Of a stretch of 47,880 bases of DNA, positions 25,458 to 26,149 are shown in pieces. Source of the DNA: Candidatus Bathyarchaeota archaeon (GTDB taxonomy: Archaea > Thermoproteota > Bathyarchaeia > 40CM-2-53-6 > DTDX01). Position numbers and translations under genes: made by a program. Position 1 is the stretch's first letter. Each line of letters starts with the position of its first letter. Under the pieces are notes generated by a model. It worked only from the letters and a program-made list of their open reading frames with translations. It made no database searches and was not told the DNA's origin. The stretch covers positions 1-47,880 of the forward strand of contig JAGTRF010000013.1 in NCBI GenBank assembly GCA_018396775.1, written 5' to 3'.

Positions 25458-25488
25458 CTTTAATTTTCGGGGCCGAAGAAGGTTTTAA

Positions 25489-25696
25489 GGGGCCGTAGAC
25501 AAAACATTGGCGGACTCTAGCCAGGTATGACGACAGATGAAAGATCCGCCAAGGGCTCCAGAAATAAACTATGGGTTTACCGACCTAAAAAGGAATGAAG
25601 AATTTCAGGAGCGAAGAAACCCGTAGACAAAACATTGGCGGAAGTCGAGGGTTCAAATTAGCCGCTTTGGCTATGAAAATCCCTTCGGCCCCACCA
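25489..25696 (+). tRNA. tRNA-Trp (anticodon CCA) interrupted by five introns
   Basis: Reconstructed by hand: acceptor GGGGCCG/CGGCCCC, D-stem GTC/GAC, anticodon stem ACGGG/CCCGT, loop CTCCAGA (anticodon 25558-25560), variable loop AGGTC, T-stem GAGGG/CCCTT, T-loop TTCAAAT, discriminator A and encoded CCA. Introns: 25499-25515 (17 nt, after position 10), 25535-25552 (18 nt, 28/29), 25562-25618 (57 nt, canonical 37/38), 25627-25643 (17 nt, 45/46), 25658-25679 (22 nt, 59/60). Mature 77 nt plus 131 nt of introns equals the 208-bp gene. BHB evidence: the last intron is perfect (TTCA:TGAA, inner TAGCC:GGCTA, T-stem outside); introns 1 and 4 use CCGT:GCGG with inner CAA:TTG; intron 2 (GACG:CGCC) and intron 3 (CTCC:GAAG) each have one A.C mismatch, so their exact edges are less certain. 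Confidence 0.85.
25493..25642 (+). repeat. 22-bp direct repeat spanning two tRNA-Trp introns
   Basis: The same 22 bases occur at 25493-25514 and 25621-25642. Each copy is the exon hexamer CCGTAG followed by the first 16 bases of a 17-nt intron (ACAAAACATTGGCGGA). The introns differ only in their last base (C versus A). Both copies end in TTGGCGGA, which is complementary to TCCGCCAA (25545-25552) inside intron 2, allowing alternative pairings in the precursor. Confidence 0.9.
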
Positions 25697-25711
25697 TGAT
25701 TTTGGGGTGGG
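25690..25711 (+). terminator. Hairpin at the 3' end of tRNA-Trp
   Basis: CCCACC (25690-25695) can pair with GGTGGG (25706-25711). It overlaps the 3' acceptor strand and CCA, so it would compete with tRNA folding; T-rich sequence follows some 15 bases later. It may help termination or be incidental. Confidence 0.25.
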
Positions 25712-26149
25712 TCCTGAAAATCGATTTTATGGTTTTATGTTTGTATACCATATATTTTATTTTTTATATGGTAAATAAAGGTTTTCATGAAGTAGCTGAA
25801 GTTTGGGAGCATAAAATGGTTGAGGAGAGAGTAAAACATATATTGTAATTGTTTATAGCCAACATGCATGGGCGCTAGCAAATTTATATTCGGAACATCA
25901 ACAGCTGAATAGCAACTATAGTTGTCAAAGGAGAAAAAGTTGCTATTAAAGCATAAAGCAAATTGAATGCAAGCTCCATGTTTTATACCAAAAACTGAAA
26001 AGCTTAATGTTGGGGGTGATTTTAACATCAATTGATAAGGATGAAACCTTAAAAGGATCTTCAATAAATGAGGTGTTTAAATTTAAATATTTAATTATAA
26101 TAGTACATAAACAAGTAGAATAATCTTGATTTATAGAGAGAGATCTTAA
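25697..26149. other. Intergenic region after tRNA-Trp
   Basis: No convincing gene. On the plus strand a 26-codon ORF at 25768-25848 (MVNKGFHEVAEVWEHK..., ending VKHIL) has plausible codon use and may be a gene remnant or microprotein. A minus-strand open frame across 25735-26064 has no SD or recognisable domain and is probably chance. The last 80 bases (TTTAAATTTAAATATTT at about 26079-26095) look like the promoter of the zinc-ribbon gene that follows. Confidence 0.4.

Follow-up and report, generated by a model that had tools for sequence, protein, structure and literature searches.

A bathyarchaeal tRNA-Trp(CCA) gene that appears to carry five introns

Introduction

Can a tRNA gene in which introns outweigh exons still be a working gene, and can as many as five introns be borne by one archaeal tRNA when reviews and the tRNAscan-SE 2.0 paper give three as the maximum (PMC4033280, PMC4390854, PMC8450103)? 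The locus that raises this question lies at positions 25489-25696 (+) of the window, by which we mean the whole 47,880-nt stretch of DNA that was analyzed. It belongs to a member of the class Bathyarchaeia whose genome is a 1.33-Mb draft in 24 contigs, estimated to be 98.5% complete, and Candidatus Bathyarchaeota is the title of nearly all named records in which closely related tRNA-Trp genes occur. With a probability of about 0.92, we regard the locus as the tRNA-Trp(CCA) gene of this bathyarchaeon, functional and apparently without a second copy, with five BHB introns that would be spliced out to leave a 77-nt tRNA; its transcription, its cutting and the order in which the introns leave are what we infer.

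Results

Structure of the gene

The 208-nt gene was resolved into six exons, together 77 nt, and five introns of 17, 18, 57, 17 and 22 nt, together 131 nt (Table 1), and the sums claimed by an earlier sequence-only reading, including more intron than exon, are thereby exact. That reading had also proposed that removal of five segments, at 10/11, 28/29, 37/38, 45/46 and 59/60, leaves a canonical 77-nt tRNA-Trp(CCA), and this was borne out: ARAGORN called the spliced 77-mer as tRNA-Trp(cca), 77 bases, and the usual tertiary contacts (U8-A14, G15-C48, G18-U55, G19-C56 and U54-A58) all have their bases in place, as judged by inspection. The first four junctions are unique, and the fifth has several equivalent registers, from which the BHB picks 59/60. 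Other registers in the D stem were rejected, as only 10/11, with exon 2 starting TCTAG, was found to give both a standard D arm and the conserved sequence of the relatives. As had been predicted of tRNA finders, the locus was missed by both ARAGORN and Rfam in a scan of the whole window; ARAGORN found no tRNA when given the unspliced gene. Rfam at a loose threshold returned a chance match only.

Table 1. Features of the tRNA-Trp(CCA) gene in window coordinates. In the BHB motifs the caret marks the cut, and fractions are pairs formed in the central helix.
Feature	Position	Strand	Remarks
Exon 1, tRNA positions 1-10, GGGGCCGTAG	25489..25498	+	identical in sister genome
Intron 1 at 10/11, 17 nt	25499..25515	+	BHB CCGU-AG^A-CAA...UUG-GCGG-AC^U, 4/4
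Exon 2, positions 11-28 with 17a (D arm), TCTAGCCAGGTATGACGAC	25516..25534	+	
Intron 2 at 28/29, 18 nt	25535..25552	+	BHB GACG-AC^A ... CGCC-AA^G, 3/4, one A-C mismatch
Exon 3, positions 29-37, GGGCTCCAG, anticodon CCA	25553..25561	+	
Intron 3 at 37/38, 57 nt, guide-RNA-type	25562..25618	+	BHB CUCC-AG^A ... GAAG-AA^A, 3/4, C34-A mismatch
Antisense element TATGGGTTTA in intron 3	25570..25579	+	fifth base upstream of D'-like box pairs with C39
D'-like box CCGA	25580..25583	+	
C'-like box ATGAAGA	25595..25601	+	
Second antisense element TTCAGGAGC	25604..25612	+	complementary to anticodon loop around C34, one mismatch
Exon 4, positions 38-45, ACCCGTAG	25619..25626	+	
Intron 4 at 45/46, 17 nt	25627..25643	+	BHB CCGU-AG^A-CAA...UUG-GCGG-AA^G, 4/4; 16-mer in common with intron 1
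Exon 5, positions 46-59, GTCGAGGGTTCAAA	25644..25657	+	
Intron 5 at 59/60 (T loop), 22 nt	25658..25679	+	BHB UUCA-AA^U-UAGCC...GGCUA-UGAA-AA^U, 4/4; outer helix GGG/CCC
Exon 6, positions 60-76 including encoded CCA, TCCCTTCGGCCCCACCA	25680..25696	+	

An intact second gene, which together with a lack of spliced reads the sequence-only reading had named as the sign of a decayed copy here, was sought in several ways. Rfam and ARAGORN detected no other CCA-anticodon tRNA in the window's genome; BLAST of the gene against that genome gave back the gene, matches to flanks and to the 3' ends that tRNAs have in common, and some weak chance matches, with no second gene; and the spliced anticodon arm had no match within one mismatch and four matches with two mismatches, around which ARAGORN found no tRNA. 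The locus is thus apparently the sole tRNA-Trp(CCA) gene of the genome, although a draft in 24 contigs could hide another in a gap.

Several features near the gene and elsewhere in the genome were recorded as well. A palindrome, TTCGGGGCCGAA, is located at window positions 25466-25477, in or just upstream of the 5' leader. The acceptor sequence GGGGCCG is repeated in it, and at this place the sister genome has GGGGCCGAAG. The palindrome could be a competitor of the acceptor stem, or a promoter or leader element. About 12 nt 3' of the gene is a 21-nt element, GGGTCCTNAANATCGATTTTA (25709-25729), which recurs with at most two mismatches at four other sites in the genome (C1:81629, C9:42079, C4:90101 and C1:87273 of G000), several of them directly 3' of other tRNA genes, and which may serve tRNA genes in common as a 3' trailer or termination signal. 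The tRNA-Pro(GGG) gene of the same genome (L013, 1394-1520 on C1 of G000; 127 nt) also looks interrupted, with ARAGORN placing an intron in it, and it is therefore probable that the genome holds more intron-rich tRNAs.

BHB motifs and predicted fold of the precursor

Each splice site was scored by the central 4-bp helix of its BHB, which pairs the last exon bases before the 5' bulge with the intron bases before the 3' bulge, the bulges being 3 nt and cut after the second base. A BHB or relaxed BHB was found at every intron, with 18 of 20 central pairs formed over the five together. Shuffled intron bases gave a mean of ~7 pairs and reached 18 in none of 200,000 trials; when four registers were allowed for intron 5, shuffles reached 18 in ~1 in 100,000. 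The sequence-only reading, which had seen a BHB or near-BHB at each segment, was right in this and wrong in singling out the T-loop site as perfect, given that introns 1, 4 and 5 all score 4/4. The mismatched sites of introns 2 and 3 have fully paired counterparts among the relatives, with CGUU (4/4) in many of them at intron 2 and GGAG (4/4) in some at intron 3. A canonical 3-nt bulge behind the GGAG at 25608-25611 was tried for intron 3 and rejected, as it leaves the anticodon loop too long, and relatives show GAAG, GAGG, AGAG or GGAG followed by AA^A as the real site. Over all parses in the class, described below, at least three of four central pairs were formed in 90% of 244 introns, versus 24% when one end was displaced by 2-4 bases. 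Relaxed BHB sites have been reported as substrates of two-subunit endonucleases (PMC4033280, PMC4090602).

Folding of the full precursor to minimum energy shows no BHB at intron 1 or intron 4 and pairs intron 1 with intron 2. The helix between TTGGCGGA of intron 1 and TCCGCCAA of intron 2, which has -14.6 kcal/mol when its stretch is taken alone, is the dominant element of the predicted structure. Exon bases 5-8 and 40-43 are used by the BHBs of introns 1 and 4 and also by the acceptor and anticodon stems; as such, these two BHBs compete with the mature fold.

Splicing endonuclease

The sister genome encodes two tRNA-splicing endonuclease proteins, of 183 and 176 amino acids. The former (at G001 C1:353973-354203, L218) resembles archaeal catalytic subunits of solved structure, with 2cv8 (E 5e-46) as its best match, and the latter is a more distant paralogue of it. 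In the window's draft genome the catalytic subunit was not found, and only the second protein, the probable structural subunit, was there; we attribute the absence, as a probable explanation, to an assembly gap. Two-subunit enzymes reportedly accept relaxed and non-canonical sites (PMC4090602, PMC4033280).

Conservation among relatives

The sister, the only other genome of the same genus that was compared (G001), has a gene that is 92% identical and keeps all five introns. All 77 exon bases are the same in both, and the ten differences (three substitutions and seven gap events) all fall in introns 1-4, a distribution with P ~0.01 if the differences were spread evenly. The flanks are far more diverged than the gene, and changes in the intron hairpins keep pairing, as in intron 1, where CAA/UUG of the window stands against CU/AG of the sister.

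Spliced alignment of loci across the class gave 90 accepted parses, a set that still contains a cut-off or near-duplicate entry. Among these, the number of introns per gene was one in 10, two in 36, three in 19, four in 20 (a few of which are doubtful) and five in 5. Three of the four-intron parses (L119, L121 and L170) look like parser artefacts, and no conclusion here rests on them. The genomes with five introns are the window's own, the sister, G032, G034 and G035, from two families. In the last three the exons differ from those of the window at 1-2 of 74 positions, and the introns are heavily diverged in sequence and length. Two of these three genes were met again in named records: that of G032 in L078 (DVMM_2) and, with its first exon lost at the edge of the stretch, that of G035 in L077 (RBG_13_38_9). 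Comparison of the exon sequences across the order indicates that they are under strong purifying selection.

Among relatives with four introns, the missing one is intron 1 in G024, G025, G027 and G033, intron 4 in G028 and intron 5 in G026, and since each of the three is singly absent they are separate units. More widely, introns 1, 2, 4 and 5 are each absent from some relatives and present in others, and an intron at 10/11 is present in G001, G032, G034, G035, G026 and G028. The intron at 28/29 in G028 (L068) is 91 nt, approximately three to five times the length seen at this site in most other relatives, and may hold a nested RNA or intron.

Introns 1 and 4

Introns 1 and 4 have 16 of 17 bases in common, as the same 16-mer, and as both follow the exon hexamer CCGTAG they create an exact 22-nt repeat, for which a search of the assembly at up to three mismatches gave no other site. 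Part of this likeness is forced, GCGG being required wherever that exon hexamer precedes the intron, but the hairpin CAAAACATTG is not. In the sister, introns 1 and 4 differ from each other. The sequences are short, and the simplest reading of them would be that one site was recently copied or converted from the other.

Intron 3

The sequence-only reading spoke of all five segments as short, which needs correcting for the 57-nt one: it is more than a small spacer, being an intron of the guide-RNA type. It is positioned at 37/38 and carries sequence antisense to the 34 and 39 regions. Across 87 distinct intron 3 sequences of the class the pattern GGGTTTRCNGA was found in 83 and ATGANGA in 85, with GGAGC behind them in 80. 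The D'- and C'-like boxes are degenerate versions of CUGA and RUGAUGA, and the base opposite C39, the fifth upstream of the D'-like box, is G, in keeping with the N+5 rule for a D'/C' guide. In the same 87 introns the best upstream match to RUGAUGA for a terminal C box usually had 3-4 mismatches, and no consistent CUGA for a terminal D box was seen behind the second antisense element; the terminal boxes being unrecognizable, we do not class intron 3 as a full two-guide C/D RNA. Archaeal tRNA-Trp introns are known to carry box C/D RNA for positions 34 and 39 (PMC4090602, PMC7714728), and intron 3 is for this reason most likely that intron. By analogy it probably doubles as a box C/D-like guide that directs 2'-O-methylation at C39, and perhaps at C34 as well.

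Excised archaeal introns can circularize. We therefore speculate that after circularization the D'/C' core might be the only box pair of a permuted guide.

Discussion

The scheme that we favor is that a precursor containing the 208-nt gene would be transcribed, that a crenarchaeal-type two-subunit endonuclease would cut both ends of the five introns at their BHB motifs and that an RNA ligase would join the exons into a standard 77-nt tRNA. Given that the BHBs of introns 1 and 4 compete with mature stems and that the global fold favors the helix between introns 1 and 2, we infer that introns 1 and 4 would be removed early from local hairpins, during or soon after transcription and before the cloverleaf closes.

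An excess of intron over exon, in a gene missed by the finders used, might also be expected of a decayed pseudogene filled with insertions, with another gene supplying the tRNA. We judge this to be very improbable, as the exons are identical in the sister and nearly so across the order while the introns diverge, there is a BHB at each insertion and no second Trp gene was found in the draft assembly. Related species keep the cuts while the intron sequences drift, and for this reason the gene is, on comparative grounds, very probably in use and not decayed. An artefact of assembly or binning, which a draft in 24 contigs might invite, is the least credible of the explanations considered: the same structure is found in the independent sister and in three other genomes, and for two of those genes the sequence is met again in the named records L077 and L078.

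Somewhat less remote, and still improbable, is that the tRNA gene is real and has fewer true introns, with some segments retained or processed otherwise; the cut of intron 3 might fall at CG^A behind GGAG, or the TTGGCGGA/TCCGCCAA helix might let introns 1 and 2 leave together. The imperfect sites of introns 2 and 3 and the strength of that helix in the predicted fold speak for such variants. Against them, a standard tRNA results only when all five segments are removed, and its exon frame is then that of the single-intron relatives L161 and L165; moreover, four of the introns (1, 2, 4 and 5) come and go among relatives. We thus retain the reading of a working gene with five introns.

A larger reading can be offered only tentatively, and we doubt that it will hold as a whole: a clade of Bathyarchaeia may have five obligatory tRNA-Trp introns removed in order, which is suggested by several splice motifs excluding each other and the mature stems; in this genus intron 1 may have arisen, or been overwritten, as a copy of intron 4 at the identical CCGTAG site; and intron 3 may be excised, circularized and used as a permuted box C/D guide on its D'/C' core alone.

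With this gene, the highest number of introns known in a single tRNA becomes five instead of three. The state is stable in that it is kept in at least five bathyarchaeal genomes from two families. The class offers a natural series of one to five introns in the same tRNA, on which intron gain, loss and copying can be tested, and the gene itself is a substrate for testing the order of splicing. As the gene finders used miss the locus, such genomes could be wrongly reported to be without tRNA-Trp.

Comparison with known systems

The nearest counterparts are the multi-intron tRNA genes of Thermoproteales (Sugahara 2008, Fujishima 2010; reviewed in PMC4033280, PMC4390854 and PMC8450103), in which several short BHB introns likewise interrupt one tRNA, at non-canonical as well as canonical positions, and which go with a two-subunit endonuclease. 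Their published maximum, however, is three introns, whereas there are five here and in four other genomes, in another archaeal class, and no report of more than three in an archaeal tRNA was found in open-licence papers on such tRNAs or on Bathyarchaeota tRNA introns. The judgment of the sequence-only reading that five are exceptional therefore agrees with the published maximum (PMC4033280, PMC8450103, PMC4390854). Near-identical introns at more than one site are also described for tRNA intron transposition in Thermoproteales (Fujishima 2010, cited in PMC4033280); here, in contrast, the two copies lie within one gene, behind the same CCGTAG hexamer, and nowhere else in the assembly.

For intron 3 the parallel is the 37/38 intron of Haloferax volcanii tRNA-Trp(CCA) with its nested box C/D RNA (PMC4090602, PMC7714728), which has the same tRNA and position, antisense to the 34 and 39 regions and a D'/C'-like core, and the length of 57 nt is similar to the archaeal median of 65. 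The two differ in that the terminal C/D boxes are unrecognizable here, four further introns surround the intron, and the target base 39 is C and not the U of Haloferax. The chemistry of this gene is ordinary; the number of its introns and their stable retention are not.
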